The translations under genes were made by a program, and so were the position numbers. A stretch of 64,000 nucleotides of DNA from Gammaproteobacteria bacterium. Lineage in GTDB: Bacteria > Pseudomonadota > Gammaproteobacteria > JAABTG01. Of the stretch, positions 8,143 through 62,457 are shown piece by piece (the first letter of the stretch is position 1; every line of letters starts with the position of its first letter). The notes under the pieces are model-generated. The model was not told the origin of the DNA and did no database searches. It saw only the letters and a program-made list of their open reading frames with translations. The stretch is from positions 3,057,549 to 3,121,548 of the forward strand of contig JAXHLS010000002.1 in the NCBI GenBank assembly GCA_034522055.1. Reading direction: 5' to 3'.

Positions 8143-8334
8143 GTCGGGGTTTTCCTCGGTTCCTGAGTAATCGCCGAATAAGCACCTAGTAAGCAAACGG
8201 CGGCAAATTCGGGTAAATTCTGTCACCACCACTGCATAGATAGTAGCCGCTAAATGCCTGTGGCGTAAAGAAAAAGTAAAGCGTAGGAAAACCGAGTAAG
8301 CAGCGGAAATAGGCGCGAGTCGGGATTGTGGCTC

Positions 8335-8369
8335 CAGTGGTCGGGGTTCGAATCCCCTCGCTCACCCCA
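8335..8369 (+). other. tRNA 3'-end fragment, putative attachment site
   Basis: The bases include a T-arm (gggg-TTCGAAT-cccc), an acceptor-like strand and a terminal CCA. The preceding 50 bases show no anticodon arm, so this is only the 3' part of a tRNA. It is the duplicated core left when an island integrates into a tRNA gene. The intact copy should lie beyond the left edge of the window. The isotype cannot be told from this piece. Confidence 0.65.
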
Positions 8370-8388
8370 TCATTAATTGAAAAGGAAG

Positions 8389-8412
8389 GGCCGTGCAGGC
8401 GACTGCACGGCC
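8389..8412 (+). terminator. Hairpin after the tRNA fragment
   Basis: A perfect 10-bp inverted repeat (ggccgtgcag / ctgcacggcc) with a 4-base loop lies 20 bases after the tRNA fragment and is followed by tctttg. This is probably the original terminator of the disrupted tRNA gene, retained on the chromosome side of the attachment site. Confidence 0.65.
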
Positions 8413-8467
8413 TCTTTGCGTCTCGCCCAGAGGATGCATTGCGAAACCCCGGGCTTAGCCGGTCGCC

Positions 8468-8545
8468 CGTCATGCCGGCGTAAGCCGGTATCCCGGAACG
8501 CCGCCCGGGGCCTTCTCCTCGATTGCGGCTTGCGCCACAATGACG
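8468..8545. repeat. REP-like double-hairpin repeat
   Basis: The 78-bp element is bounded by CGTCAT and ATGACG. It contains an inner hairpin (atgccggc-gtaa-gccggtat) on the left and a weaker counterpart on the right. This layout resembles the extragenic palindromic repeats common in gammaproteobacterial genomes. It lies in the gap after the deacetylase gene. No second copy was noticed in the window. Confidence 0.5.
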
Positions 8546-8629
8546 TCGCTTCTTCGGTGGTTGGGCGCGGAATGCCGCCTTGGCCCGGGAAGCGCAGGTC
8601 TTCCGAGGGCGTCCTTCGTTTCGGCAGCG

Positions 8630-39531: not shown

Positions 39532-39927
39532 TCAGCGGATCCCGGCCTGGCGCTGAAGGCCCCGGATGTATGCGATGATGTGGCCTGCCTCCTCGGGGCT
39601 GATCTGGGGCTGAGGTGGCATGTCCCCAAAGTTCCAGTGGTGCTCCCGAACGCCGTCGCGGACGGCAAAGTGAATCGTCAGGTCGGCGTGGTGGCTGCGG
39701 CGGTAGATCGGGTCCACCAGCGGCGGCCCGCGGTCTGTGCCTTGGGCACGGTGGCCGTGGCACTCGACGCAGTGGGCCTGGAACAGGCGGCGGCCTGTCT
39801 CGGCGTCCGCCTTGAAGTCCTCCGGCGGGAGGTGGAAGCGCTGGCGCCCCGCCTCTGGGTCGTTCTCGCCGCAACCGGCGAGAACAGCGGCGAGGAGCAT
39901 GGTCGCGGCGGCCCTGGAGAATTTCAT
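39532..39927 (-). CDS. Lipoprotein c-type cytochrome
   Basis: The start at 39925-39927 gives 131 residues with a lipobox (LLAAVLAGC), so the protein is probably anchored in a membrane. One haem motif, CVECH, lies in LFQAHCVECHGHRAQGTDRG. A likely axial Met is in FGDMPPQPQISPEEAGHIIA. It follows another cytochrome gene by 10 bases and precedes the VTT gene by 3 bases, so all three are co-transcribed. Confidence 0.88.
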   Translation of the reverse strand: MKFSRAAATMLLAAVLAGCGENDPEAGRQRFHLPPEDFKADAETGRRLFQAHCVECHGHRAQGTDRGPPLVDPIYRRSHHADLTIHFAVRDGVREHHWNFGDMPPQPQISPEEAGHIIAYIRGLQRQAGIR

Positions 39928-39937
39928 GATGCGCGCC

Positions 39938-40549
39938 TCAGTGGTCATGGTTGTCGTGAACATGTTCGGCCGGTTCACCGTCGGTGGACTCCCCCTCATC
40001 ATCCGCGGCCAAGGCGCCTCCGTGAGCGTGGGCGTGACCGTCGTCCCCCGCCCGCGCCACCAGTTGCTCGTAGCCCGCCGCGTCGAGCGCCGGCAGGCGC
40101 CGGATGAAGGCTACCAGCTCCCACAGCTCGTCATTGCCATGGGTCGGGCCCCACGCCGGCATCCCGGTCATGCGAATGCCGTGCTTGATTATCCAGAACA
40201 GCTCGGCGGGACTGCGTTCCGCACCCCTGTCCGCGAGCCGCGGTGGCGCGGGGCTCATGTCCCGCGCGCCCACGAAGGGCTCGCGCCCGGGCGCGCCGTG
40301 GCAGCTCGCGCAGATCTCGTCGAAGGCTCGGGCGCCGGCCGTCACCGTGGCGTCCCCGGACAGGTCGGGGACGGTGATGGCCGCGGCCCGCCGCTCCACC
40401 GACTGCTGGCGGATGGTGCGCAGCAGCCAGCGCAGCGCGGCTGGCTCGTCGGTAGTGGCGGAGACTTCGGGGATGCCAGAGTAGGCGAGACCCACCACAG
40501 CGGCCGCGGCGAGGACGGTGACGAGGATGACGGCGGACAGAAGCTTCAT
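39938..40549 (-). CDS. Membrane-anchored c-type cytochrome with His-rich tail
   Basis: The 203-residue protein has an N-terminal helix (LSAVILVTVLAAAAVVGLAY), one haem motif in AFDEICASCHGAPGREP and an axial Met in RMTGMPAWGPTHGNDELWEL. The last 40 residues are rich in His and acidic residues (DDGHAHAHGG, AEHVHDNHDH) and could bind a divalent metal. Its start overlaps the adaptor stop by 4 bases, which ties it tightly to the RND pump genes. Confidence 0.88.
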   Translation of the reverse strand: MKLLSAVILVTVLAAAAVVGLAYSGIPEVSATTDEPAALRWLLRTIRQQSVERRAAAITVPDLSGDATVTAGARAFDEICASCHGAPGREPFVGARDMSPAPPRLADRGAERSPAELFWIIKHGIRMTGMPAWGPTHGNDELWELVAFIRRLPALDAAGYEQLVARAGDDGHAHAHGGALAADDEGESTDGEPAEHVHDNHDH

Positions 40550-41679
40550 ATCCTACCTCCGATTTTATGGGTAGCGGTATCATCTTGCCTGCCCGGGGAC
40601 TCGGCCTCAGCACCCGACTGCGTCGCCGGCGGCAGCACCACCTGCTCACCGGGCCGCAGCCCGCTAAGGACCTCCATGCGGCCATCGTGGCGCGCGGGGC
40701 CGGTGCGCACATAGCGGCGCAACGCGCTGCCATCGACCGCTACCAGTACATACTCCAGCTGACCCACCCGGCGCAGGGCCGACGCCGGCATGCTCACATG
40801 CTCTACCGTCCCCGCCTGAATGAGCAGGCGGCCGAACATGCCGGGATAGATCTCGGGCAGGGACGGCAGGCTGGTCTTGACCACGAAGGAACGGGAACCG
40901 GGATCGGCGGCAGGCACGATCATGTCGACGGTCGACGGGACGGTCAGGTCCAGGGCGTCGATGCGCACTTGCAGGCTCTCCCCCGGGGTCAACCGGGTGG
41001 CCAGGGTCTCGCGCACCTGCGCCTCCAGGCGCAGGGCCTCGGGATCGTAAAGGTGCAGCAGTGGGCTGCCGGGGCTCGCGGTGTCTCCCGGCTCCACCAA
41101 GCGGTGAATGATCCGGCCGTCGATGGGTGCACGCACGGTGGCATGGCTGCGTGCCGTTTCCGCCTCTCCCACCGCCTGGCGGCTGCGCTCCAGCTCCGCC
41201 TGCGCGGTCTTGAGGGCCGCCTCGGTGCGGTCCAGCTCCGCGGCGGCAGCGACTCCCCGCTCCGCCAGCTCTCTCACCCGCTCGAAGGTGGCACGCGCCT
41301 CTTCCAGGGTGGCCTGGGTGGCCGCCCGCGCCTGACGTGCCTGCTCGAGTCTGGCCGTGAGATCCCGGCGGTCCAACTCCACCAGCACATCGCCCTTCGT
41401 GACTCGGTCACCCTCTCTTACCGTTACGGCGATCACGGTGGAGAGTACCCGCGCCGATATCTGGGTCTGCTCCCGCGGGCGCAGTGTGCCCACCGCCTCC
41501 TCCACCAGGGGTACCCGGTGCAGTTGCACCTCGACCAGCGGGCCAGCGATGGGCCGTGGCGGAGCCGCGACGCGGCCGGTCGGTATCTTCTCCTCGAACA
41601 CCCCGGCCAGCAGGGCCATGAGGAACGCCAGCAGGATCAGGGCGCCGGCCGCGCCGGCAATGCGCAATGAAGCATTCAT
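40546..41679 (-). CDS. RND periplasmic adaptor subunit
   Basis: The 377-residue membrane-fusion protein has an N-terminal anchor (LILLAFLMALLAGVF). A lipoyl half follows (ARVLSTVIAVTVREGDRVTK), then a long coiled-coil hairpin (residues about 110-170, rich in Ala/Glu/Arg). The second lipoyl half (ARSHATVRAPIDGRIIHRLV) and a barrel domain (SMPASALRRVGQLEYVLVAV) complete it. It connects the next-door pump to an outer-membrane channel. No TolC gene is in this cluster, so it may share one. Confidence 0.9.
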   Translation of the reverse strand: MNASLRIAGAAGALILLAFLMALLAGVFEEKIPTGRVAAPPRPIAGPLVEVQLHRVPLVEEAVGTLRPREQTQISARVLSTVIAVTVREGDRVTKGDVLVELDRRDLTARLEQARQARAATQATLEEARATFERVRELAERGVAAAAELDRTEAALKTAQAELERSRQAVGEAETARSHATVRAPIDGRIIHRLVEPGDTASPGSPLLHLYDPEALRLEAQVRETLATRLTPGESLQVRIDALDLTVPSTVDMIVPAADPGSRSFVVKTSLPSLPEIYPGMFGRLLIQAGTVEHVSMPASALRRVGQLEYVLVAVDGSALRRYVRTGPARHDGRMEVLSGLRPGEQVVLPPATQSGAEAESPGRQDDTATHKIGGRI

Positions 41680-44600
41680 GCAACGGGACTCCTCTGGCCG
41701 GTGGACTGATGCGCCTCGCTCTCGCCGTAGACCAGGAAATAGGCCACGGGGACCACCGCCAGGGTGAAGACGGTGGAGGCGCTGATACCGAATATCACGG
41801 CCCAGGCCAGGCCGCTGAAGATGGGATCCAGGGTAATGACGACGTTGCCCAGCAGGGTGGTCACGGCGGTGAGCACCACCGGGCGCATGCGCACGGCGCC
41901 GGCGGTGAGCAGGGCGTCGCGCAATGCCGCACCGCGGCCGAGTTCGAGCTGAACGAACTGCACCAGCACCAGGGAGTTGCGGACCACGATGCCGGCCAGC
42001 GCGATCATGCCGATCATGGCGGTGGCGGTGAACAGCGCCGGGTTGGGTTGACCGTCGATGATCCGGTCACCGAGCTGATTGAGCAGCCAAAAACCGGGCA
42101 TTATTCCGATGACGGTCAGGGGGATGGCCAGCATGATGATGAGGGACAGGGATGGCAGGCCGGTCTGGATCATCAGCACCACGAAGATCCCCACCAGCGC
42201 CACCCCGAAGGCGATGCCGAGATCGCGGAACACGCGCAGGGTGATTTGCCATTCACCTTCGCCACCCCACTCGACATTCACGCCCGCCGGCAGAGACCAG
42301 GGGATGCCACCTCCCGGATCGATAAAGCTGCGCTCGTCGAGGGGCCGGGGGGCCTCGGCCGCCGTCGCCGGGGCATCCTGGTCCGCCGCCAGGTCGGCGA
42401 TGATCTCTGCGGGGGTGCGTCCGGCGGCATCGGCGTAGACGTAGGCCACCGGGCGTAGATTTTTGTGGTAGATGGTCTTGTCCACCTGGTGCTCGGCGAA
42501 GTGCCCGAGTTCACGTAGTGCCGCCAGTCGCGGGGGCGCGTCGCCCATGGGCGGGTCGTCCGCGGTGCCCGCCGTCGCCACGTGGAGCGCTCCCAGCTCG
42601 CCCGGGGCATTGCGCCGGCCCATGGGCAGGCGCAGCTCGATGGGCAGGGGGTTCGCCTCCGAGGGCAGCTGCAGGTGGCCGGCGACCTGGCCGGCGGTGG
42701 CCAGGGCCACGGTGGCGGCGGCCTCCCGGGTGGTTACACCCGCGAGCGCCGCTTTCTCCTTGTCGGCCACGTAGACCAGCTTGCGCTGGTCGTCTTCCAC
42801 GGAGGTGTCCACGTCCACCACGTAGGGCTCGCGTTCGAGGCGTGTGGCAAGGGTGCGTGCGGCGTGTCGGAGGGCGGCGTAGTCGGTGGTCTCGTGGCCG
42901 TAGATCTCGGCGGTCAGAGTGGAGATCACCGGTGGACCGGGTGGCACCTCCACCAGCTTGATGAGGACATGGTGCTCCCGTCCGAGTGCCGCGAGTTCCC
43001 GGCGCAGCCGCAGGACCACCTCGTGGGACTGCTGGCTGCGGGCGTGACGCCCGGCGAGGGTGACCCTCAGTTCGCCGAGGTGGGGTGCCTCGCGGAGATA
43101 GTAGTGGCGTACCAGGCCGTTGAAGTCCATGGGGGAAGGCACCCCCGCGAAGCCGGAGATGCTCTCCACCTCCGGCACCGAGGCCAGCAGCCTGCCTGCC
43201 GCCGCCACCACACTCTGGGTGCGTTCCAGGGTGGTGCCTTCCGGGGCGTCCACCAGTACCTGGAACTCGTCCTTGTTGTCGAAGGGCAGGAGCTTGAGGG
43301 GCACCGCGCGCAACAGCGGCAGGGCGGCGGCGAGCAGGAACAGCAGGGCCACCACCGCCAGGAAGGCCCAAGCCCGCCGCCGGCTGGCGATCAGGGGTGC
43401 CACCAGCACCGCATAGACGCGGTAGAGAGCGGTCCGGGTGATGTCATAGTCTGCCTCTGGGCGCACGTGGCGCAGCATCCGGTAGGCCAGCCAGGGGGTG
43501 AACAGGAAGGCCACCAGGGTGCTCGCCGTGACGGCTACCGGCACGTTGAAGGCCATCGGTGCCATGTAGGGACCCATCATGCCGGTGATGAAAAACATCG
43601 GGGCAAAGGCCAGGATCACCGCGACGGTGGACAGCAGCAGGGCACTGCGCACCTCCAGCATGGCATCCACCACCGCATCGCGGGCCGAGCGCCCGCCCAT
43701 GCGCAGGTAGCGGCTGATGTTGTCCACGCCGGTGATGGGATCATCCACCAGCAGGCCCAGGGCAAGGATCAACGCGAAGAGGGTGACGCGGTTGATGGTA
43801 TAGCCGGTCAGCAGGTCGAGCAGCAGGGTGATGCCGTAGCTTACGGGTACGGCCACCGCCACCACTACCGCCTGCCGCCAGCCGAGGAATACGGCGATGA
43901 ACACCACCACCGTCAGCATCGCCACGGCCAGGCTGGACACGAGATCGTCCACCTTCTGGTCGGCGGTCTCACCGTAATTGCGGATGATCTGGAAGTGGAC
44001 CTCGGGTGGAAAAAGCTCGCGATGGAGCCGTTCCAGGGTCTCCAGGGTCTCCTCGGCGACCCACACCGCATTTGACCCCTTGCGTTTGGCCACCGCCAGG
44101 AAGACGGCCGGGTAGGGGCCGTCGACTCTGCCCTCGGTGGTTGAGGCGGGCCCGAAGTCCGTCCAGGTATAACTCGTGGGCTCCGCCGGACCGTCATGGA
44201 CGCGGGCGACGTCTCGCAGCTGGACGGGAGCACCGTCCAGCACATTCACCACCAGTCGCTCCAGGGCCGCGGCATCGGCGATGAAGGTGCCCGCCTCGAC
44301 GACGATGGCGTGGTCCTTACGACTCACCACGCCGCCGGATTGCTGAAAGTTGGCGGCCTCGATGGCGTCGGCCACCTGGAGTGGGGTGGTCCGGCGAGAT
44401 GCCAGTGCTGCCGGGTCGAGTTCCACCCGGATACGGCGCGGATTGCCACCGGTGACAGTGACCCGGTTGGTGCTGTCGATGGCCTTGAGGCGGTGGGCCA
44501 TTTCCTCGGCGAGGCGGCGCAGGGTGTAGCCGCCGACCCGCTCCGGGTCGTCACTCCACAGCGATGCCACCACGATGGGGACGTCGTCCACCTCCAGCGG

Positions 44601-45023
44601 CTTCACCACCCAGGACCGTACCACTGCCGGAACCTGGTCCCGGCTCGATTCCAGCTTGGAGAATACCTTGACCAGCGAGTCCTCGCGGTCCTCGCCCACG
44701 TAGAAGCGTACGGTCACGATGGCGCGGCCGGGCTGCGACATGGAGTAGACGTGCTCGACACCGTCGATCTGGGACAGCAGCTTCTCCAGTGGCGTGCTCA
44801 CCTGGCGCTCCACCTGGCGGGCCCCAAGCCCTGGTGCCGACACCAGTACGTCCGCCAGCGGGACGATGATCTGCGGCTCCTCCTCCCGGGGGGTGATGGC
44901 CAGCGCCACCAGGCCGGCCGCGATGAGACCTATTACGCCCAGCATCACCAGCGGACCGTTCATGGCGCCGGCGATCAAGCGTCCCCAGGGACCGCTTTGG
45001 GGCGTATGGGGGTTTTCGTTCAT
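41676..45023 (-). CDS. RND efflux permease, AcrB/HAE-like
   Basis: The 1115-residue permease has 12 helices and two big periplasmic loops. Motifs are LAITPREEEPQIIVPLADVL and GARQVERQVSTPLEKLLSQI near the start. Helix four reads LALGLLVDDPITGVDNISRY, where the LLVDDPI form differs from both the CusA and CzcA signatures. This places the protein nearer hydrophobe/amphiphile RND pumps than known metal pumps. The substrate is unknown. The adaptor overlaps its end by 4 bases. Upstream lies the beta-propeller gene. Confidence 0.92.
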   Translation of the reverse strand: MNENPHTPQSGPWGRLIAGAMNGPLVMLGVIGLIAAGLVALAITPREEEPQIIVPLADVLVSAPGLGARQVERQVSTPLEKLLSQIDGVEHVYSMSQPGRAIVTVRFYVGEDREDSLVKVFSKLESSRDQVPAVVRSWVVKPLEVDDVPIVVASLWSDDPERVGGYTLRRLAEEMAHRLKAIDSTNRVTVTGGNPRRIRVELDPAALASRRTTPLQVADAIEAANFQQSGGVVSRKDHAIVVEAGTFIADAAALERLVVNVLDGAPVQLRDVARVHDGPAEPTSYTWTDFGPASTTEGRVDGPYPAVFLAVAKRKGSNAVWVAEETLETLERLHRELFPPEVHFQIIRNYGETADQKVDDLVSSLAVAMLTVVVFIAVFLGWRQAVVVAVAVPVSYGITLLLDLLTGYTINRVTLFALILALGLLVDDPITGVDNISRYLRMGGRSARDAVVDAMLEVRSALLLSTVAVILAFAPMFFITGMMGPYMAPMAFNVPVAVTASTLVAFLFTPWLAYRMLRHVRPEADYDITRTALYRVYAVLVAPLIASRRRAWAFLAVVALLFLLAAALPLLRAVPLKLLPFDNKDEFQVLVDAPEGTTLERTQSVVAAAGRLLASVPEVESISGFAGVPSPMDFNGLVRHYYLREAPHLGELRVTLAGRHARSQQSHEVVLRLRRELAALGREHHVLIKLVEVPPGPPVISTLTAEIYGHETTDYAALRHAARTLATRLEREPYVVDVDTSVEDDQRKLVYVADKEKAALAGVTTREAAATVALATAGQVAGHLQLPSEANPLPIELRLPMGRRNAPGELGALHVATAGTADDPPMGDAPPRLAALRELGHFAEHQVDKTIYHKNLRPVAYVYADAAGRTPAEIIADLAADQDAPATAAEAPRPLDERSFIDPGGGIPWSLPAGVNVEWGGEGEWQITLRVFRDLGIAFGVALVGIFVVLMIQTGLPSLSLIIMLAIPLTVIGIMPGFWLLNQLGDRIIDGQPNPALFTATAMIGMIALAGIVVRNSLVLVQFVQLELGRGAALRDALLTAGAVRMRPVVLTAVTTLLGNVVITLDPIFSGLAWAVIFGISASTVFTLAVVPVAYFLVYGESEAHQSTGQRSPVA

Positions 45024-47026: not shown

Positions 47027-48460
47027 TTAAGAATCGTTCAACGGGGTCGTGGCGGTTGCCGCCAGCGGCAGGCGCAGGATAACCCGGGTGCCCTCGCGGG
47101 CATCGCTGGCCATGATGACCTGGCCGCCGTGTTCCTCCACCACCCGCTTGACCAGCACCAGGCCAAGTCCTGAACCCCGGGGCTTGGTGGTACAGAAGGG
47201 TTCGAAGACCCGCTCCAGGACCTCCGGTGGTATGGGATCCCCGGGGTTGGCCACCTCCACCATCGCTATGGTGCCGTCACGGTAGTGGCGGACATGGATA
47301 CGCGAGCCGGGCGGGCTCGCTTCCACGGCATTCTTCAGCAGGTTGAGGAGGACCTGGTGCATCTTGGCCTTGTCCAGTCGCATCGCAGGGCAATGGTTGC
47401 ACTTTGTGCGGTCGACGGTGATGGCTTTCTTGCGCAGCAGGGGCTGCTGTTGGCGGATCACATGCGCTATCAGCAACTCGACGTCCACCTGCTCCATCGA
47501 CAGCTGCAAGGGCCGCACGTAGTCCAGGGTCTCCGACAGGAGGGCATCCAGTCGATCCACCTCGCCCGATACCAGGGCGACCCTGCGACGCTCCCGTTCC
47601 GGGATCGCCCCGTAATCCTTGAGGCCCCCCAAGGCCAGCTTGATGGATGCGAGGGGATTGCGCATCTCGTGGGCGAGCATGGACGCGGTCTGACCGATGG
47701 CGGCGAGGCGGGTATTTCGCACCATCGCCTCGTGGGCCAGATCAAGCTCCCGGGTGCGCTGGCGTACCTGGGCCTCGAGGTCACGCTCGTACATGCGGCC
47801 AATGCCCCGCAGTGCCATATGTCCGAGGAGGGCGATGAGCACGAAGGTGATCAGCAATACCAGATCCAGATGCCAGTGCAGATCGCCGAGAAACTGTACC
47901 AGGGTGTTCTGATCACTGGCGACGCCGAGCAGCCAGGGGTGTTCGCTTGATGTACCGGCGCCAGCCTGCTGGAGCCAGATGAGCGTGGTGAGGCCGCCTT
48001 CAGACACGGTCACGGCCGGCCCCTGAACCAACCGCAACGGTCCCTGGCCCTCGATCCCCGAGGAGGCACCAGCCAGCCAGCTGGAATCGATGGGAACCGG
48101 GAGGTGAGTCATTCCGCGGCTGTCCGCTACCAGCAGGCGACGGGCACGGTCGACAACGAAGAGCCGATAGCCAAGGCTGCCGAAGCGCTCCAGGGTCCGC
48201 TGGAGGGGGTCCCGGGAGGGGGTGCCCGTGGAATCCAGTACGGGGCGAAGATAGGGCAACAGATTCTCCGCGATGTCGCGGTTGTGGTGAATGCCGTGGG
48301 ACAGCAGGCGCTCCTGCAGGTAACCGAGGACATGTGCGGTGCCGGTGAGGCCGACGCCGGCCACTATCAGTCCCATTATCAAAAGGCTCAGCCATGTTAC
48401 CTTGGTCGGCGTCCATCGCCGGGGGCTGCCATCGGCCTTCGGTTCAGTTTTTGTCTGCAT
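47027..48460 (-). CDS. Sensor histidine kinase, ZraS/NtrB-like
   Basis: The 477-residue kinase has two membrane helices (WLSLLIMGLIVAGVGLTGTA near residue 24, and LVLLITFVLIALLGHMAL near 195). A 150-residue periplasmic sensor domain lies between them. The phospho-acceptor box is SMLAHEMRNPLASIKLALGG. The ATP site has NLLKNAVEASPPGS and CTTKPRGSGLGLVLVKRVVE. In the ATP-binding domain, near residue 350, sits an unusual CNHC pair (DRTKCNHCPAMRLDKAK). It is divergent from its response regulator, with 82 bases between them. Confidence 0.9.
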   Translation of the reverse strand: MQTKTEPKADGSPRRWTPTKVTWLSLLIMGLIVAGVGLTGTAHVLGYLQERLLSHGIHHNRDIAENLLPYLRPVLDSTGTPSRDPLQRTLERFGSLGYRLFVVDRARRLLVADSRGMTHLPVPIDSSWLAGASSGIEGQGPLRLVQGPAVTVSEGGLTTLIWLQQAGAGTSSEHPWLLGVASDQNTLVQFLGDLHWHLDLVLLITFVLIALLGHMALRGIGRMYERDLEAQVRQRTRELDLAHEAMVRNTRLAAIGQTASMLAHEMRNPLASIKLALGGLKDYGAIPERERRRVALVSGEVDRLDALLSETLDYVRPLQLSMEQVDVELLIAHVIRQQQPLLRKKAITVDRTKCNHCPAMRLDKAKMHQVLLNLLKNAVEASPPGSRIHVRHYRDGTIAMVEVANPGDPIPPEVLERVFEPFCTTKPRGSGLGLVLVKRVVEEHGGQVIMASDAREGTRVILRLPLAATATTPLNDS

Positions 48461-48542
48461 GGGCCTTGCCGGGGCACTGTCGTTTCGGTTCCGATAGGGC
48501 GAACGTTATCATAGGTTTTGATTTGCCCACCGGATAGCAACC

Positions 48543-49898
48543 ATGGCCTATATCCTCATCATCGAAGACGATCCGGTATTCGGCGAACTCCTGGTCATGC
48601 ATCTTGAGGATCGCGGCCATGAATCTCGAGTCGCGGGCGACATTGGAGAAGCGCGGGAGTTGCTTTCCCAGGGCACTCCGGATGCCGTGCTTCTGGATCA
48701 CCAACTGCCCGATGGCTACGGGCTTGACCTGCTTGGGGAGCTCGGGGCGCCGAACGATGGGCCGCCGGTCATCATGATCACCGGTGTTACCGACAATGCC
48801 CTCGCCATCGAGGCGATACGTCACGGTGCGTATGACTTCATTCGCAAGCCGATGGACGACCTCGAACTCGAAACCACCCTGGGGAATGCCCTGCGCCATC
48901 ACCGCTTGTCCCGCCAAGTCTCGGCCATCACCTCCACCGAAGACCATCGAGTAGATATCAACGAGATCGTGGGTAGGAGTTCGGCGATCCTGGAAGTGTG
49001 CAAGACCGTTGGGGCAGTGGCTGCCCGCGTGGCACCGGTTCTCATCACGGGGGAGACCGGCACGGGCAAGGAGGTGGTAGCCCGCGCCATCCATCACCAC
49101 TCGGGGCGCCAGGGCCTGTTCCTGCCCCTCAACTGTTCGGTGCTGGCCGAGGGTGTCCTGGAGAGCGAGCTGTTTGGCCACGAGCGCGGCAGCTTTACCG
49201 GCGCGCTGGGGCGCAGGGAGGGCCGTTTCGAACTCGCTGCCGGCGGTACCTTGTTCCTCGATGAGGTAGGCGAGATGCCGGCGTCGCTGCAGGCCAAACT
49301 CCTGCGGGTGCTCCAGGAAGGCACTTTCGAGCGGGTGGGCGGTGGTCAGGTCCTGCATTCCGACGCCCGCGTCATCGCCGCGACCCATCGTGACCTGGAG
49401 GCCATGGTGCGCGACGGCACCTTTCGGGAAGATCTCTACTACCGCCTTAACGTGGTGTCCGTGCACTTGCCGCCGCTGCGCGAGCGGATGGCGGACCTGC
49501 CGATCCTGATCGAGCACCTGCTATACAAGATCAATGCCCGCCAACACACCGCGGTCCGACACACTGCCGAGGGCACCTGGCGTCTGCTCAATGACTACTC
49601 ATGGCCAGGCAACGTGCGCGAGCTGGAGAATGCCCTTACTCGCGCCGCGGTGCTGGCGCGGGGGGACACCCTGACACCGGAACTCTTTTCCCTGTCCGAT
49701 GACGTGGCCGCCACTGTGGTCGACGCAGGAGATGATCAGCCGGTCCCGCCGCGTCTCATCACCCTCGATGAACTGGAGCATGAGCACGTCGTCGCGGTGC
49801 TGAACCATGTGCGCTGGCACAAGGGCAGGGCCTGCGAGATCCTGGGCATCTCGCGCCCCGCCCTCGATCGCAAGATCGAGCGCTACGGGCTTGCTTGA
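48543..49898 (+). CDS. Sigma-54-dependent response regulator, ZraR/NtrC-like
   Basis: The 451-residue protein has a receiver domain (ILIIEDDPVFGELLVMHLED; phospho-Asp in DAVLLDHQLPDGYGLDLL). An AAA+ domain follows with Walker A GETGTGKE, the loop ESELFGHERGSFTGAL, Walker B GGTLFLDEVGEM and YSWPGNVRELENAL. A Fis-type helix-turn-helix closes it (GRACEILGISRPALDRKIER). The sigma-54 contact loop reads GSFTGA where GAFTGA is normal. It should activate sigma-54 promoters after phosphorylation by the divergent kinase. Confidence 0.93.
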   Translation: MAYILIIEDDPVFGELLVMHLEDRGHESRVAGDIGEARELLSQGTPDAVLLDHQLPDGYGLDLLGELGAPNDGPPVIMITGVTDNALAIEAIRHGAYDFIRKPMDDLELETTLGNALRHHRLSRQVSAITSTEDHRVDINEIVGRSSAILEVCKTVGAVAARVAPVLITGETGTGKEVVARAIHHHSGRQGLFLPLNCSVLAEGVLESELFGHERGSFTGALGRREGRFELAAGGTLFLDEVGEMPASLQAKLLRVLQEGTFERVGGGQVLHSDARVIAATHRDLEAMVRDGTFREDLYYRLNVVSVHLPPLRERMADLPILIEHLLYKINARQHTAVRHTAEGTWRLLNDYSWPGNVRELENALTRAAVLARGDTLTPELFSLSDDVAATVVDAGDDQPVPPRLITLDELEHEHVVAVLNHVRWHKGRACEILGISRPALDRKIERYGLA

Positions 49899-51098: not shown

Positions 51099-54260
<3,162 letters not shown>

Positions 54261-55478
54261 TCAGTGGTCGTGGCTGGCGCCGGATTTTTCGATATCCGCC
54301 TTGATGAGATAGCTGTTCTCCACCACGTAGGTGTCACCGGAATTCAGCCCCGACAACACTTCTGTGAAGCGGCCGTCGCTGCGGCCCAGCTCCAGCGGGC
54401 GAATCTCGTAGCTGTCATCCACTCGGATAAACACCACGGTCCAGTCGCGGAACGATTGCAGGGCGCGATTCTCCACCGCCAGCGGCACGTCGATCTTCTC
54501 CACCACAATGTCAGCCGAAACCAGTTGACCCGGCGTCCGGTTGCCCTGGGCGTTGTCGATTTTGGTCCGCGCTATCACGAAGGGTGCATTGTTACTGCTC
54601 GGCAGCAGGTGATCGATATTGGCCTGGTATTGGCTGCCTTCGCTGTCGATGCGAACGGTCTGACCGACGGCGATTTCCTGCCGCTGTCCCGGAAAGATTT
54701 TCAGTTCCACCCATAACGTATCCAGATTGGCGACGGAAAACAGGGACTGTGCCTCGGCCAACTCACCGACATTGACGTTGCGCTGGATGACGGTACCGGC
54801 GAAGGGCGCGCGAATAGCATAAGTCTGCAGGCTCTCATTGGACTCGATGGTGGCGAGCACCGCACCCTCTTGCACTGTATCTCCCAGGCTGGCTGCGACG
54901 CGCTTGACCAGTCCGGGGAATCGCGCCTTGATATGGGCGATGGTTTCCGGATTGGCAATCAACTGGCCATAACTGATAATGCGGCGCTCGATGGTAGCCG
55001 GGCCAGCCTCACGCGTGCCGATCCCGGCCTGCCCGGCCATGGCGGCGGAGATTTCCGTGCGTCCTTCGTGGGATTCCCAGGTCCATTGATGATCCTGGCC
55101 AGCGAGTGCCAGTTTCGCTGTCACATCAAAGGAGTGCGGTTCCTCCACCACGCCTTTGCCCAGCCAGTAATCCCCCTGATGGGTGAATGTGAACCGATCC
55201 ACCTGCCCACCCAAACGGGTCAATTCGACGCTCAGTTCGGCGCCTTGGGTAACCGCATCGCCATCCCGGCTGAGCCAGGCGCGGTATTCGGGCGGGACGC
55301 CCTGTTCATAAATCGCCAGCTCCAGGGTGACATCGCCGTCTTCCAACAGCCTGCCTCCATTTGGTCCTTCTTCGGCGCTAGCGTCTTCAGCACCATGATC
55401 CTCTTCCGCGGCCTGCACCGGCCCCCACGCCAGGCACAGCATGCCGGCAATGATGAACAAAGCGTGTAGTCGTTTCAT
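54261..55478 (-). CDS. czcB: CzcB adaptor protein
   Basis: The start at 55476-55478 gives 405 residues with a signal peptide (ALFIIAGMLCLAWGPVQA). An acidic N-terminal domain unique to CzcB-like adaptors follows (EEGPNGGRLLEDGDVTLELA). The lipoyl and barrel parts include AHIKARFPGLVKRVAASLGD, YAIRAPFAGTVIQRNVNVGE and LSGLNSGDTYVVENSYLIKA. It ends in Ser-His-Asp-His. The N-terminal domain may bind the metal before handing it to the pump. Confidence 0.93.
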   Translation of the reverse strand: MKRLHALFIIAGMLCLAWGPVQAAEEDHGAEDASAEEGPNGGRLLEDGDVTLELAIYEQGVPPEYRAWLSRDGDAVTQGAELSVELTRLGGQVDRFTFTHQGDYWLGKGVVEEPHSFDVTAKLALAGQDHQWTWESHEGRTEISAAMAGQAGIGTREAGPATIERRIISYGQLIANPETIAHIKARFPGLVKRVAASLGDTVQEGAVLATIESNESLQTYAIRAPFAGTVIQRNVNVGELAEAQSLFSVANLDTLWVELKIFPGQRQEIAVGQTVRIDSEGSQYQANIDHLLPSSNNAPFVIARTKIDNAQGNRTPGQLVSADIVVEKIDVPLAVENRALQSFRDWTVVFIRVDDSYEIRPLELGRSDGRFTEVLSGLNSGDTYVVENSYLIKADIEKSGASHDH

Positions 55479-55497
55479 AATGAATGATCCTGTTCTG

Positions 55498-56802
55498 TCA
55501 GTAGCCGGAGCCACTTTCCGTGGCAGCCAGTGACTGCCCCGTGAGCTGTTCGATCAAGGCCTGGTTGAGCAGCGCCGTGGTGGCGGCATCTACCAGATCC
55601 CGTTGGGCGGCGAGCAGTTCCCGCTGCGCCGTCCGCCACTCCACATAGCTGTAACGGCCCTGCTCATAGGCGGTGCGAGTAAGATCCAGCGCCGCGCTCA
55701 GATCGGGAAGTACCCGGCTCTGCATGGCGTCCACCGTCGCCACCGCCTGCCGATGCAGGTGATACGCTTCGTAGAGTCGTGAACGCAGAACCAGCAGGGC
55801 GCTTTCTCGTCGCAAACTTACCTCGTCCCGTGCCGCCTGGGCCGCCTGTGCCTCGCCGCGATTGCGGCGACCGGAAAACAGAGGCACGGAAACACTCGCC
55901 ACCAGCGCGGAATCGCCGGTTTCCTCCAGGTAGCGGGTACCCACCTGCCAGCGGACATTGCTGCGGGACTGGCTGCGAGCGAGTGCCAGTTCCGCCTCCC
56001 GCAGGCGCTCCTGACTGGCGAAGACCCGAATGTCGGGATTCTCGCGGGCGCGCTGGAACAGATCCGGGAAACCGTCAGCAGCGGTGAAGGCAAACAAGTC
56101 CCCTTGCAAGCGGGTAAAGTCCGCCGTCTCCTTGCCCAGCAGGGTGGCCAGGACCATGAGGCTGCTGTCGTGGGCGGCCCGCAGGCGATCCCGCTCCAGC
56201 CGGCTCTGGGTCAGTTGCGCCCGGGCACGCAGGACTTCCGCCTGGGGTGCGGCGCCTCGTTCGGCCCGCTGGCTGACGATGTTATGGCTGGACTCCTCCA
56301 GCTTCACCGCATCGTCGGCGAGTTGCAGTTTTTCCTGCAAGGTCAGGGCACTGATAAAACCTCGGGTGACATCGCCGAGCAGGCCGAGGGCTTCGGCGCG
56401 GCGTTCTGCCTCGACTAATGCATAACGCCCGGAGGCTACCTGGGTGCGCGCCTGGCGTTTGCCTCCCAGTTCGATAACCGAGGACAGTGAAAGGGTGTAT
56501 TCCGCCCCGTCGAGTCCGTTGAGTTCCCCGGAACCGAGGACATTTTCCGCTTCAAAACCCAGTTCAAAGGCAGGATTCTGGTCAGCCGTCAGGCGTTTGC
56601 CTTCCAAGCCGATCAGTCTGGGAGTGAACACCTGCAGGGCAGGGTTTTGTGCCAGGGCCTGGAAAGCAGCCTGCGGCAATGTCAGGGTTTGCGCATCCGC
56701 GTCGGCGAACACTGCCAGTGGGCTGGAAAAAATCAGTCCCAATGCCAGAATAATGGCATGACGCCCACGGCGTGGGCGCCACAAAAAGTCGTCGTGATAC
56801 AT
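55498..56802 (-). CDS. czcC: CzcC outer-membrane channel
   Basis: The 434-residue protein has a signal peptide (IILALGLIFSSPLAVFA) and the repeated helical hairpins of TolC/CzcC proteins: LTLPQAAFQALAQNPALQVF, YTLSLSSVIELGGKRQARTQ, AERGAAPQAEVLRARAQLTQ and TAYEQGRYSYVEWRTAQREL. It completes the CzcCBA pump. czcB starts 19 bases downstream. Confidence 0.92.
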   Translation of the reverse strand: MYHDDFLWRPRRGRHAIILALGLIFSSPLAVFADADAQTLTLPQAAFQALAQNPALQVFTPRLIGLEGKRLTADQNPAFELGFEAENVLGSGELNGLDGAEYTLSLSSVIELGGKRQARTQVASGRYALVEAERRAEALGLLGDVTRGFISALTLQEKLQLADDAVKLEESSHNIVSQRAERGAAPQAEVLRARAQLTQSRLERDRLRAAHDSSLMVLATLLGKETADFTRLQGDLFAFTAADGFPDLFQRARENPDIRVFASQERLREAELALARSQSRSNVRWQVGTRYLEETGDSALVASVSVPLFSGRRNRGEAQAAQAARDEVSLRRESALLVLRSRLYEAYHLHRQAVATVDAMQSRVLPDLSAALDLTRTAYEQGRYSYVEWRTAQRELLAAQRDLVDAATTALLNQALIEQLTGQSLAATESGSGY

Positions 56803-56871
56803 CGCATGATTCCTGTGAAATCAGAAGAAAAAACGATTCCTCCCAAATAAGAGGGAGGTTGATTCGCAGGA

Positions 56872-57272: not shown

Positions 57273-58271
57273 TCAACCTAGGAGACGCCCAAGGACGATC
57301 TCGGCGCCATGGTGCCATTGATCACTACTCTTCAGGCCGAGTACGAGGAAGCCAATGGCAAGGGCAGAGACCGTGACAAAAAGAGCGGGACGTTGGGGGA
57401 TTGGCGGGCGCAACAGGCCCTCAACACGTGACGCCGTATCCGCCCCCGTGAAACCCGTCTCCACGGCGGCCACCGGGGGCGCGGTTGAACCGATCAATCG
57501 TGTCAAGTGGAGGATGGTTTCAGCGACTTGTAGTCTGTCACCCGACCGACTCGCGGCGATCTCGTCACAGGCCTGTTCGATGGCCAGCTGAAGATCACCC
57601 AGCATGCGGTGCCGTATAGACGATATATGCAGGCCAACGAACAGACCAGCGACAAACAACCTCAGCCCATCCCGGCGCCGTTGATGGGCGTACTCGTGAT
57701 CAACCACGATAGCGACTGCACGAGGATGAACCGCTTGTAGCAACGCACTGGAAAGGAAGATCTGTGGCCGTATCAGACCGGCCGTGAACACAAAATGGCG
57801 TTGCGATGAAACAACACGTGCTATGGGGCTATCCGTTGAGGGTGTGCTCAGAGTAAGCAACATCCTCAGCTTACCGCGAGCCTTCCCGAAGCGAGCGCCT
57901 GCAGCGACCAGCCAGGCTGATGCCAGCGTCGCCAGGCCGCCTAATACACTCCACTCGATGATGCCGCCAACCACCCAAGGCGTGTGAATCACACACAGAT
58001 GTATGTGGTGGTCATGGGCGCGGCAATGATCCACGCCAATTCCCAGCAAGTATGCCACTGAGGGGGAGAGCACCAGCAGCAGCAACATGCTGCTTAGCCA
58101 CACGGGTACCGTTGCCCAGGCAAAAAGAAAGTTTGCGCGAGTTGCGGGCGCCATACGATTTAGCCAAGCGGCCACGGCCGGGTAAAGCACTGCGGAAACA
58201 ACCACGATGCTCGCCCCTGCGCAGAGCAGTATCAGCAGGGAGGCGACAACGAGCCCGATCTCTGGTGTCAC
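57273..58271 (-). CDS. M56-family membrane metalloprotease with His/Cys-rich loop
   Basis: The 332-residue BlaR1/MecR1-like protein has four or five membrane helices. The protease site is HEYAH (residues 192-196), with the third zinc ligand in IEQACDEIAA (Glu232). BlaR1's penicillin-binding sensor domain is absent. Instead, between two early helices (residues 81-96), there is a short loop, DHCRAHDHHIHLCVIH, with six His and two Cys. In BlaR1/BlaI, signal binding triggers protease cleavage of the repressor. Here the loop could bind metal and trigger cleavage of the BlaI-like repressor encoded upstream. The start overlaps the blaI-like gene by 4 bases. Confidence 0.85.
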   Translation of the reverse strand: MTPEIGLVVASLLILLCAGASIVVVSAVLYPAVAAWLNRMAPATRANFLFAWATVPVWLSSMLLLLVLSPSVAYLLGIGVDHCRAHDHHIHLCVIHTPWVVGGIIEWSVLGGLATLASAWLVAAGARFGKARGKLRMLLTLSTPSTDSPIARVVSSQRHFVFTAGLIRPQIFLSSALLQAVHPRAVAIVVDHEYAHQRRRDGLRLFVAGLFVGLHISSIRHRMLGDLQLAIEQACDEIAASRSGDRLQVAETILHLTRLIGSTAPPVAAVETGFTGADTASRVEGLLRPPIPQRPALFVTVSALAIGFLVLGLKSSDQWHHGAEIVLGRLLG

Positions 58272-58666
58272 GATGGCGTGTCCCCGGACTCGGCGCGGCG
58301 TTCGGCGATCAGTCGTTCAAGCCGAGCCAGGTTTTCGTCATCGACTCTTGCCGCCAAGTCCACAAAGGCGGTGAGCATCGGTTCGAAGCGCCCCGATGAA
58401 AAGGTTTCGACCACGCCTTCGATCAGCCGCTCCATCAACTGTTCGCGGCGCACCGATGGGGTGTAGACGTAGGCATGACTGATCTTCTCGCGAGTCAGCA
58501 AATCCTTGCGGTACAGACGCTCCAACGTCGACTGCACGGTGTTGGGTGCGATACCCCGACGGCCACCAATGCGGCGGTGCACCGTCTTCGCATCGCTGGC
58601 GCCGTGGGTCCATAGTTCTTCGAGGACCGCGAGTTCGAGGTCACCGAAATAGGGCCTGAAAAGCAT
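58268..58666 (-). CDS. BlaI/MecI/CopY-family repressor
   Basis: The 132-residue protein starts LFRPYFGDLELAVLEELWTH and has the winged-helix pattern TVHRRIGGRRGIAPNTVQST, with LERLYRKDLLTREKISHAYV for the wing. The dimer domain follows (LMERLIEGVVETFSSGRFEP). It lacks the C-terminal Cys hook of CopY (CxCxxxxCxC), so it probably does not bind Cu itself and depends on the M56 protease. It heads the series blaI-like, M56, His-rich, czcC, czcB, czcA on the minus strand. No TACAnnTGTA box was seen upstream. Confidence 0.85.
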   Translation of the reverse strand: MLFRPYFGDLELAVLEELWTHGASDAKTVHRRIGGRRGIAPNTVQSTLERLYRKDLLTREKISHAYVYTPSVRREQLMERLIEGVVETFSSGRFEPMLTAFVDLAARVDDENLARLERLIAERRAESGDTPS

Positions 58667-58707
58667 CGAAGGGGAGGAACCTCAAAGGCAAATGGAATGA
58701 CGGCAGC

Positions 58708-59313
58708 TTATCCTGACAAAACAACGACCGTCAATCGGTGTTTGATGGGCTGCTTCGCTTTTCTTGGTGACGCCTTGAGCACCACGCCCTGTTCGGTCCT
58801 GGTTGAGGGTCTTCTGGGTGCAAGCATGTCGCCGCGCGTACACGTCGAGTCTACCGTCCCGGCCCAGGGCGTAGACGTTGTAGGCCTCCTTTCGTGGCCC
58901 CTCCATGTCCGGCGAGCCATGGGCATGCCCGGTACGGCCAGGCCGTGGATGTCGGGCCGTGCCGCCAGCATGCCTTGGATGACGTCGGTGGGCACGTGGC
59001 CCTCCACCACGTAGCCATCCACATAGGCCGTGTGACGGGACTGCAGGCGGCGGGGGATCCCGGCCTCGGCCTTGATGGGCTCGAGGTCCTGGACATCGCG
59101 GGCGTCCACGGTGAAGCCGTTGGCCTCGAGGTGCTCGACCCACTTGCTGCAGCAGTCGCAGGTGGGGCTCTTGTAGACCACCACCTCGGCGGCGGCGCCG
59201 TGGCGGGAGGTGAGGGCGAGGCCGGTGGCTACGGCGGCCAGCGCCAGCAGGCCTGATACCAGCAGGATTCGTGGCAGGGCCCGGGATGAAGTCTTCTTCG
59301 TCATGAAGTCCAT
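58708..59313 (-). pseudogene. DUF411 metal-binding protein with a late frameshift
   Basis: The frame from 59313 encodes a signal anchor (ILLVSGLLALAAVATGLAL). A DUF411 domain follows: VVVYKSPTCDCCSKWVEHLE, IPRRLQSRHTAYVDGYVVEG and HVPTDVIQGMLAARPDIHGL. At PGMPM a missing G (ATGGCTC where ATGGGCTC is expected) moves the frame. The correct ending (GSPDMEGPRKEAYNVYALGR, DGRLDVYARR) is readable in the next frame. The CDCC pair and most of the domain remain, so a truncated product could still bind Cu(I). A sequence error is also possible. Confidence 0.75.
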
Positions 59314-59508: not shown

Positions 59509-59685
59509 TCAGAAGATCAAGTCATCGTCGTCGACTTCAAAGGTCGTTATGCGGTCTTGTTGCATGAGTTCGACCAGCTGCCGATCGTATCGGCTCCAGA
59601 TGGCATCGCGGAGTTCGTCGATAAAGTCATAGATCGCCAATGCCTGCTCTGGTGTCCAGTCGTCCGGTATCGGGGGATGGGTCAT
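59509..59685 (-). CDS. Small IS21 accessory ORF
   Basis: The 58-residue frame (TPEQALAIYDFIDELRDAIW, RITTFEVDDDDLIF) overlaps the istB stop by the ATGA type of coupling. Short acidic proteins of this type are found behind some IS21 istB genes. Function unknown; maybe an accessory regulator. Confidence 0.6.
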   Translation of the reverse strand: MTHPPIPDDWTPEQALAIYDFIDELRDAIWSRYDRQLVELMQQDRITTFEVDDDDLIF

Positions 59686-60455
59686 GGTTGGGCTCCTTTG
59701 TTGGATTTGGCTGCGGATTGGCGCCGCTGCGCCTGTTGCTGCTGTCGCTCCTTGGCCTCCTTGAGCCGGTAGGATTCACCTTCGATAGTGAGGATCTCGG
59801 AGCGGTGTACCAGCCGGTCCACGAGGGAGACCACGCAGGAGGCGTTGGGAAAGACTTCACCCCATTCGGCGAAGGGTCGGTTGGTGGTGACCAGGGTGGA
59901 TTTCTCCTCGTAGCGGCGGGAGACGATCTCGAACAGCAGATCGGCATGGCGATTGGAGTAGGCGAGATACCCCACCTCGTCGACCGCTAGCAGTTGAGGG
60001 CGGGCGTAGCGGGCGAGGCGCCGCTTGAGGGCGCTGTCGCCATCCTGGGCGGCCAAGTCATTGAGCATCTGGCCGGCGCTGGTAAAGAGGACGCTGTGGC
60101 CGGCCAGCACCGCTTGATGGGCGATGTTGCGGGCCAGGGTGGATTTGCCGACCCCGTTGGGTCCCACCAGGATGATATTGACCGCCTCGGTAAGGAAGTC
60201 GAGGCGCATCAGCTCACTGACCAGTTCCCGGTCGCAACGGCTGGGCCAGCCCCAGTCGAAGTCGGCCAGGGGTTTGAAGCGGCCCAGCCGCGCCCCTTTC
60301 ATGCGCCGCTCGAGGCTGCGGTCGGCACGTTCTTCCTCTTCCCACTGGATCAGGGACTCGACCCAGCCAGCGTCGGCGTGCTCCTCCCAATGGCTCAGCA
60401 GGCCATGGAGCTTGAGGGCCGTGGCCCGTTCTTTCAGGGATGGGTTAGGGATCAT
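59682..60455 (-). CDS. istB: IS21 transposition helper ATPase IstB
   Basis: The 257-residue protein is a DnaA/DnaC-related AAA+ ATPase. Walker A is [20 protein letters not shown] and Walker B is [38 protein letters not shown] and [20 protein letters not shown] follow as usual. It bends target DNA and activates IstA. Its start overlaps the istA stop by 4 bases. Confidence 0.93.
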
Positions 60456-61980
60456 TGGGGCTCCTCCTGGGCGTCGTCTTCGGCTTCGGGCGGGGTGGAC
60501 TGCAAGGCGTCGTAGCCGCCCAGATCATGGGTGCGTACCACCAGCCCCCTGGCGCGCGCGTGGTCGATGCGCACTCCCACCCGGGGCGGCTGGTTTCTCG
60601 CCTCGCGCCTCCGCTGCAGGGCGATGCGCACGCCGTTGGGGTGAGCGACCCCGTGGGCCAGGCTCTCCTGGATGGCCGCTTCCAGCTCGGGGGCGCCGTA
60701 GGCATCGAGGAGGCGCAGCAGGGCGGCGGTGATGGCGCCGAGGTTGTCGCCACGCTCAGCGGCCTGTATGAGTAACTGCCGGCTGGCCGGTGCGGCCTGG
60801 GCCAGGTGGTCCTGGCCGCGATGATGCCGGGCCTGGCGTTTGATCTGGACCAGTGCCTCGATGTGTTCCGGCTGTTCGATCTGCCGGCCCTTGTCGTAGC
60901 TGCGCGGGTGGCGGGCGATGACGTCTCCGCCGTCGAGGATCCGCACCTCGGTGGGTGAGGCCGAGACGGTGAGGGTGCGGCGCACATGGGTGTGGGGCAC
61001 GCTGTAGTCGTTGCCCTCGAAGCGCGCGTAAGGGGTCTTGCCGATGTGGACCTCGACCCGCTCGTCGGTGGGATAGGGGTTATCGGGCAGCGCCAGCAGG
61101 GGCTCCTGCTCGAAGGCCTGGCGCACCGAGAGGGCACGGTCCTCCGGGCAGGGCCGGTCCATGGCCCAGCCGTTGCACCAGGCCTCGGCCTGGGCGTTGA
61201 GGTCATCGATGTCGGTCCATTGGCGGGCCGGCCAGAAATTATCGCGTATCGTGCGGATGGCGCGTTCCACCCGCCCCTTCTCGTTGCCCCGGGCCACCGC
61301 CACCGGACGGGGCTCGAAGCGGTAGTGGGCGGCGAACTCGAGCAAGGTGGGATGGAAGCGGATGGCCTCACCCTGGCGCTCCAGCACGGCGCTTTTGAGG
61401 TTGTCGTAGAGCAGGACCTTGGGCAGGCCGTTCGAGGCGGTGAAGGCCGCCTCATGGCCCCGCAGGAAGTTGGCCATCTTGGCATCGAGGAAGAAGCGCA
61501 AAAAATGCGCCGGGAGTAGCTGAGCACCATGACAAAGGCCATCAGGGCATGGGTTGCGCGGCCGATGGTGAGCTTGCCGAAATGGCCCCAGTCGATCTGT
61601 CCCTGGTCGCCGGGCAGGGTCTTCAGGCGCAGAAAGGCCTCGGGCCGGGGGCGTGGCCGGTAACAGGCGAGCTGATGGCGGAAGTGGTCGGGGCCGCCGG
61701 GGTAGCCCCGTTCACGCACCATGCCGTAGAGGCGGCTGGCGGTGAGCGTGGGGAACTGGGCCAGGGTGTCGGTGATGAACGGCAGATAAGGATCGATCAT
61801 CGACGGCTGCGCAGCCCGCTCGACCTTCGGCATGCCGGCCTGGGAGAGCACCCGATTGACGACGTTGTGGTGTACGCCCAACTGGCTGGCAATGGTGCCC
61901 ACCCGCCACTTCTCGACGTAGTGATAGCGCAGGATCTGCGCCTCTTGTTCTTTGCTGATGGCCAATGCGTTTCTCCTCAT
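60452..61980 (-). pseudogene. istA: IS21 transposase IstA with a frame change at a T6 run
   Basis: The start at 61978-61980 gives [20 protein letters not shown] and [20 protein letters not shown] (helix-turn-helix). Then comes the first catalytic part ([20 protein letters not shown]). At 61500-61506 a run of six A (T on the coding strand) needs one extra T to continue into [20 protein letters not shown] and [20 protein letters not shown]. The second frame is intact to its stop. Either a real or sequencing deletion, or slippage on the run, could join them. All other core residues look normal. Confidence 0.85.
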
Positions 61981-62040
61981 CTCGTGGCCGGCCGGCTCAA
62001 GGGGGCTGAGCCCGGGCGCCTGGTGGCCCCTGTCGGGTGA

Positions 62041-62457
62041 CTGTTCCAAGCGCAGCAGCGGCGGTGGCGCGATGAAGCGGGCCGGTACGCAGGAAAGGTC
62101 CGCACTCACGGCCGCAGAAGTGGCAGCGAATGGGCGCCATCATCGGCGCGCCATCCGCACCGCGGCGGCCAGCCGGCCTCGCCGGAACGGGGGGTAGTGG
62201 ATCATGAGGGGCGGGGCCGGGGAACCCTGATGCGTCACTTTCTGCCTTCTCGCCCGGTAGCGGCGTTGCCGCTCGGCATGCTTGTGCCGGCCCTGGCGGC
62301 TCTGCTGGTAGCGCCAGCCGGCGGCCCGCAGAGACGCGCTTCGTGCCACCTGCGCACACCCCTCAGGGCAATAGATGTTGCCGCGGTCACAGCCGCTGCA
62401 GATCATCACTTGACGGTGACAACGGGCGCAGTTGTACAGGCGTGCAGAGTTCTCCAT
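62041..62457 (-). pseudogene. Zinc-ribbon accessory protein of IS21, frameshifted
   Basis: The start at 62457 opens MENSARLYNCARCHRQVMIC with SGCDRGNIYCPEGC, a double Cys-x2-Cys ribbon, then an Arg-rich helix (HAERQRRYRARRQKVTHQGS). A frame change near 62180 leads to a last ribbon, [19 protein letters not shown]. Similar genes accompany some IS21-like elements. A nucleic-acid-binding role is likely but unproven. It is directly upstream of istA. Confidence 0.55.

Follow-up and report, generated by a model that had tools for sequence, protein, structure and literature searches.

A BlaI/M56 gene pair with a His/Cys-rich membrane loop at the head of czc efflux genes: a candidate proteolytic metal switch

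In the stretch of DNA analysed here (64,000 nucleotides, hereafter the window), a BlaI-family repressor and a short M56 membrane protease are encoded ahead of czc-type efflux genes. We consider this pair to be probably a proteolytic switch of the BlaR1/BlaI type that has been re-tuned from antibiotics to metals, with a His/Cys-rich loop at the EL1 position sensing periplasmic metal. A metal switch had been proposed in a first-pass annotation of the window and is supported by the present study. Comparison of sequences defines a family of such M56 proteins, with its gene order, its linkage to metal genes, a conserved loop, a common operator and homology to BlaR1/BlaI; from this, we infer that the M56 protein binds metal, becomes active as a protease and cleaves BlaI. 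The features discussed are listed in Table 1.

Table 1. Features of the switch region and of the efflux genes that follow it
Feature	Position	Strand	Basis
Operator O1, ACACCGATTGACGGTCGTTGT, 55-75 nt upstream of blaI	58721..58741	(-)	leave-one-out PWM
BlaI-family repressor, 132 aa, no Cys	58268..58666	(-)	PF03965
A100-F101 codons, at the position of the N101-F102 bond cut in MecI/BlaI	58364..58369	(-)	profile alignment to MecI 1sd6
M56 membrane protease, BlaR1-like, without C-terminal sensor domain	57273..58271	(-)	332 aa, GTG start; PF05569
Proposed periplasmic metal-binding loop at EL1 position, codons 81-96, DHCRAHDHHIHLCVIH	57984..58031	(-)	family motif conservation; predicted extracytoplasmic
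HEYAH, protease active site, residues 192-196	57684..57698	(-)	sequence
HHGAE, codons 320-324, extracytoplasmic C-terminal His and Glu	57300..57314	(-)	alignment and family C-terminal segments
CopL/CzcI-like His-rich exported protein, 119 aa	56872..57231	(-)	NF033807 CopL_fam, 25.2 bits
Terminator-like hairpin between copL-like gene and czcC	56839..56858	(-)	consensus scan
CzcC-type outer membrane efflux protein	55498..56802	(-)	PF02321; NF045679 165 bits, below cut-off
CzcB-type periplasmic adaptor	54261..55514	(-)	PF16576/PF13437; NF045680 229 bits, below cut-off
CzcA-type heavy-metal RND pump	51099..54248	(-)	TIGR00914; signature motif

The M56 protein had been described as carrying a HEYAH site and no penicillin-binding domain, and we confirmed this description: PF05569 (Peptidase M56; 33.2 bits against a cut-off of 31) is the sole domain detected, and the chain stops ∼18 residues past its last membrane helix, where the penicillin-binding sensor domain is absent. 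The third-ligand motif of gluzincins is present as EQACD at residues 232-236. In an alignment of 11 M56 sequences, H192, E193, H196, E232 and D236 are invariant, and H320 and E324 in the C-terminal segment are as invariant as these catalytic residues. The latter two are possible extra metal ligands.

The repressor matches PF03965 with 88.3 bits (cut-off 22.6), and its gene overlaps the start of the M56 gene by 4 bp, in agreement with the overlap first reported. MecI (1sd6) matches the profile of the family BlaI proteins with an E value of 2e-12. At the position of the known cut, A100 and F101 are nearly invariant in the alignment of family BlaI proteins, the Asn of N101-F102 being replaced by Ala. 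The score of the repressor against TIGR02698 (CopY/TcrY), 46.9 bits, is below the cut-off of 121.95. The window repressor contains no Cys among its 132 residues and therefore has no Cys hook of the CopY type, as had been noted. Downstream, 41 bp separate the M56 gene from the copL-like gene, and 69 bp separate the latter from czcC. The pump gene matches TIGR00914 (CusA/CzcA) with 1553.9 bits against a cut-off of 701. The order of the czc genes on one strand stands as first described, whereas the label 'czcI-like' corresponds to a CopL match that does not reach the family cut-off of 40, and a terminator-like hairpin lies ahead of czcC. Given this hairpin, which by itself does not exceed chance expectation, the genes may not form a single uninterrupted transcript.

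The sequence bears out the 16-residue loop with six His and two Cys that had drawn attention to this protein. It holds 6 of the 15 His and two of the four Cys of the M56 protein, and the chance of finding eight or more His/Cys is p ∼2e-7 for a given 16-mer and ∼7e-5 over all positions. Within the 11-sequence alignment, the two loop Cys are invariant, like the catalytic residues; across the family, 23 of the 26 members have both. A common form of the loop is [DE]HC-xx-H-xx-HH-x-H-[LF]-C-xx-H-P, and some members have a shorter one (PEHCHGAVCVPHPP or DHHCHPLEGCMAHVP). This motif is retained although overall identity is 25-36%. A nested clade (L043, L084, L085 and Shewanella plasmids) has a loop of the HWHH...SWH type from which both Cys are missing; it nonetheless heads czcCBA and keeps several His at the same loop position. 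The loop is thus retained by homologues from different classes and phyla, a point on which the first-pass annotation had made its proposal depend, together with a location of the loop outside the cytoplasm.

On the second point, the loop is predicted to be extracytoplasmic. Across the family, Lys plus Arg average 0.19 for the loop and 0.35 for the C-terminal tail. The segments predicted to be cytoplasmic have higher means, 2.38 for the first inter-helix loop and 3.88 for the stretch that follows helix 3; by the positive-inside rule, the loop and the tail would therefore both be outside. The predicted model of the window M56 protein (mean pLDDT 81) has helices at 3-37, 42-75 and 104-141 followed by the protease domain, and its C-terminal part comprises a helix at 295-314 and a C-terminal helix. 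Model confidence is at its lowest in regions that include the loop (pLDDT <50 at 89-92 and 97-102), and ligand geometry is unreadable there. The best structural matches are structures of Staphylococcus aureus BlaR1, which occupy Foldseek ranks 1-6; VIA-align comparison with BlaR1 gave Z scores up to 14.6 over 225 residues (8ext, model residues 15-279). In BlaR1, the loop joining helices 2 and 3 is EL1, which drives signalling by way of helix 3 (PMC9834060). In the predicted fold, the His/Cys loop occupies the same place. Charge bias, predicted fold and BlaR1 topology together place it, as a prediction, outside the membrane at the EL1 position.

HMM searches covered 369 genomes of the window's class and 398 of the phylum. 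Their scores separate short M56 proteins (>100 bits) from long ones (∼480-730 aa; ≤83 bits), and in a tree, a branch supported at 100/99 separates the 26 short proteins from 16 long controls. The family is represented in several families of the window's class, in another class of the same phylum (f207) and in one MAG each of Rhodospirillales and Myxococcales. A second M56 protein in the same genome (L013), 28% identical and with the loop DDHCLAHGLHHPHFCLRHLP, has its own BlaI, TolC, adaptor and pump of the CusA/CzcA family. A scan of genome contigs returned only 5 loci because it relied on a single peptide pattern; among viral contigs, 48 pattern matches included no relative. One member, L086 (M56 at 7658-8623), has lost HExxH (YELIR) while retaining a Cys/His loop and a BlaI partner, so that not every family member may act by proteolysis; all others examined retain HExxH and the E...D motif.

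A BlaI gene accompanies the M56 gene in 26 of 26 loci, immediately upstream wherever the genes were mapped. Genes for metal efflux (RND) or for a TonB receptor adjoin 22 of the 26 loci, compared with 0 of 20 loci of long M56 proteins (18 kb each, searched identically); the associated p = 1.9e-9 is only indicative because the counted loci are partly related. The search for other looped M56 proteins beside BlaI and RND genes, recommended when the window was annotated, was therefore successful. Genes for HME-RND pumps were found at 14 of the 26 loci; at three others (L044, L047 and L079), genes for outer-membrane efflux proteins lie close to contig ends. At least three signature types are represented among the pumps. 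No recognised metal transporter was found near L011, L012, L036 and L043, where contigs are short in part. The order BlaI, M56, TolC, adaptor, CzcA is shared by annotated plasmids of Shewanella sp. ANA-3, S. baltica, Pseudoalteromonas donghaensis, Glaciecola and P. aeruginosa.

At five loci (L041, L042, L082, L083 and L086), the neighbouring gene encodes a TonB receptor, and for these importers the sign of the regulation may be opposite. These receptors carry the plug motif HGHGQGYTDLNF, and the M56 proteins next to them have short Cys/His loops. On Shewanella and Pseudoalteromonas plasmids (L126, L127 and L129), a DUF3147 gene is divergent from blaI and has the operator region in common with it. 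HupE/UreJ-like genes lie beside or inside the operons at L077, L078, L081, L126, L127 and L129.

Upstream of blaI, we identified a palindrome with the consensus AAACCGATTGNCAATCGGTTT. Consensus searches were inadequate for this site: with 3 mismatches allowed, the full consensus missed the window's own copy, and the short core was no rarer than chance in the window. We therefore used a leave-one-out position weight matrix (PWM), which placed the operator upstream of blaI in 20 of 23 loci. For each site, between 0 and 2 of 1000 shuffles scored as high; these counts gauge each site and not the number of evolutionary events, related loci being partly dependent. The window operator O1 scored 23.7, a value reached by 0 of 1000 shuffles, and is the best PWM site of the 64 kb (21.9 versus 6.1 for the next), with a degenerate right half. 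TTGACG within it could be a −35 box; a consensus scan found no σ70 promoter match in the window. Control loci without the operator (25 entries at 23 distinct places) gave at most 12 of 20 seed matches, compared with 13-20 for the sites used. The PWM site of L012 precedes a DUF2231 gene that stands before blaI, a site was also found at L041, where the blaI start is probably miscalled, and L011 has merely a weak one. A pattern scan of 398 genomes yielded 12 distinct operator sites, 10 of them at family loci. The other two, at L094 and L102, map within unrelated genes and were discarded as chance matches.

A second operator is present 31-47 nt past the M56 stop codon in 11 efflux-linked loci and in L012, and in five plasmid loci outside the PWM set, the top two sites start 65-70 nt before blaI and 37-47 nt after M56. 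Since the same operator is common to the start regions of blaI and of the efflux genes, it gives independent support to the reading as a metal switch. In ten loci, the second copy falls within the first codons of the next gene; in the others, it is non-coding. The ten coding copies (L010, L039, L040, L046, L047, L048, L077, L080, L084 and L085) are always in the same reading frame, corresponding to a signal peptide of the KKPxxxRF type. We considered the possibility that the second operator is a mere by-product of this signal-peptide motif. As the site lies outside the annotated or predicted efflux gene at L044, at L012 and on the P. aeruginosa plasmid, a function at the DNA level is preferred, the codon counts being too few to decide. 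A second operator was sought in the window and in L013 and was not found; control of czc in the window would consequently depend on read-through.

We propose that BlaI, bound to the palindromic operator, would hold off the regulator genes and the metal-efflux operon; in many relatives, it would also occupy the second operator at the start of the efflux genes. The M56 protein would lie in the inner membrane with its protease side toward the cytoplasm. The loop that joins helices 2 and 3 would face the periplasm and bind a metal ion through Cys83, Cys93, several His and perhaps His320/Glu324. The metal in this genome would probably be a divalent ion, Zn, Cd, Co or Ni, given the type of CzcA. Once bound, it would shift helix 3 and activate the protease, which would cut BlaI near Ala100-Phe101, free the operators and end repression; we infer the sign of this response as well as the identity of the metal. 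The wider generalization, which we regard as about evenly poised, is that this constitutes a distinct metal-responsive control across several bacterial classes and conjugative plasmids. The M56 protein would be a one-step transmembrane sensor with EL1 as its metal receptor, tuned by variants of loop chemistry (Cys2-His5/6, short Cys-His, His-only), and cleavage of the repressor would control heavy-metal pumps or TonB receptors, often by means of paired operators ∼1.45-1.5 kb apart, which could form a repression loop.

The loop might instead be structural, act as a redox (Cys-Cys) switch or feed zinc to the enzyme, with the M56 protein answering another envelope signal. Its two Cys, 10 residues apart, could form a disulfide in the oxidising periplasm, and the HWHH clade stands at the head of czcCBA without them. 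However, the loop is dominated by His, of which that clade has several in the same place, and the linkage to several types of heavy-metal pump points to metal as the signal, so we judge this explanation unlikely. As for the protease, the M56 protein could act on BlaI without cutting it, for example through metal-dependent sequestration at the membrane, and L086, with its degenerate active site, would fit such a mode of action. This seems very unlikely for the family, given that the catalytic motifs are kept in all other members examined and that the known cut position of MecI/BlaI is conserved as A-F.

The remaining alternatives concern the target and the signal. The pair could regulate itself only, with czcCBA under separate control, for instance by the NtrC-like two-component pair at 47027-49898. 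The window, with no second operator detected and a terminator-like hairpin ahead of czcC, would agree with this, but an operator copy is found at the start of the efflux genes in the 11 efflux-linked relatives and the five plasmid loci, and a scan found no σ54 promoter-like site ahead of the czc genes of the window; such self-regulation therefore appears highly improbable. That the pair is a degenerate β-lactam sensor standing beside metal genes by accident can appeal to the homology to BlaR1/BlaI, and yet it is hardly credible in view of the missing penicillin-binding domain, the absence of a β-lactamase gene among the neighbours tested and the repetition of the metal-gene linkage throughout the clade.

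Bacterial metal sensing is known to involve cytosolic repressors, two-component systems and ECF systems. CopY/TcrY belong to the same repressor superfamily and likewise target metal efflux; CopY senses the metal itself via a Cys hook, whereas the window repressor has no Cys and is partnered by a membrane protease. Two-component systems of the CzcRS/CusRS type control CzcCBA/CusCBA by sensing periplasmic metal through a phosphorelay and an activator, unlike the proteolysis of a repressor proposed here. In Mycobacterium tuberculosis, Rv1845c/Rv1846c consist of an M56 protein without a penicillin-binding domain next to a BlaI repressor; we know of no His/Cys loop or link to a metal pump for this pair. 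The closest parallel is with BlaR1/BlaI and MecR1/MecI of Staphylococcus and Bacillus, in which a BlaI repressor and an M56 gluzincin protease are also encoded together. The resemblance extends to the predicted transmembrane-protease fold, in which the loop joining helices 2 and 3 is extracellular (PMC9834060), and to the aligned BlaI cut position. The window pair differs from these systems in that it has no C-terminal penicillin-binding sensor, a His/Cys motif in EL1, another operator and a link to metal-efflux genes.

A description of the BlaI-M56-czc module was not found in the open-access literature, and public records give these genes generic names. As most subscription journals are outside this coverage, novelty is probable and not certain; repressor cleavage is probably an undescribed way of switching on metal export. 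To our knowledge, the signals of most M56/BlaI pairs without a sensor domain have not been established. This clade offers a concrete candidate signal (periplasmic metal), a sensor element (the EL1 loop), an operator and a target (heavy-metal pumps). If the proposal is correct, transmembrane proteolysis of a repressor would join the known modes of metal sensing, and the M56 protein would provide a minimal BlaR1, without the drug-binding domain, for studying the control of a cytoplasmic-side protease by a loop on the outer face of the membrane. Because conjugative plasmids carry the module, it also bears on the spread of metal resistance.

The surroundings of the switch in the window show some further features. 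Upstream of blaI, a DUF411 gene (58682-59313, minus strand) has an apparent frameshift near 58900, its C-terminal part (GSPDMEGPRKEAYNVYALGRDGRLDVYARR) being in another frame. An istB gene of the IS21 type and broken istA-like frames adjoin the metal island (59682-62109, minus strand). Besides the NtrC-like pair, the window contains a second RND pump with an adaptor and cytochrome c-like genes at 39532-45023.
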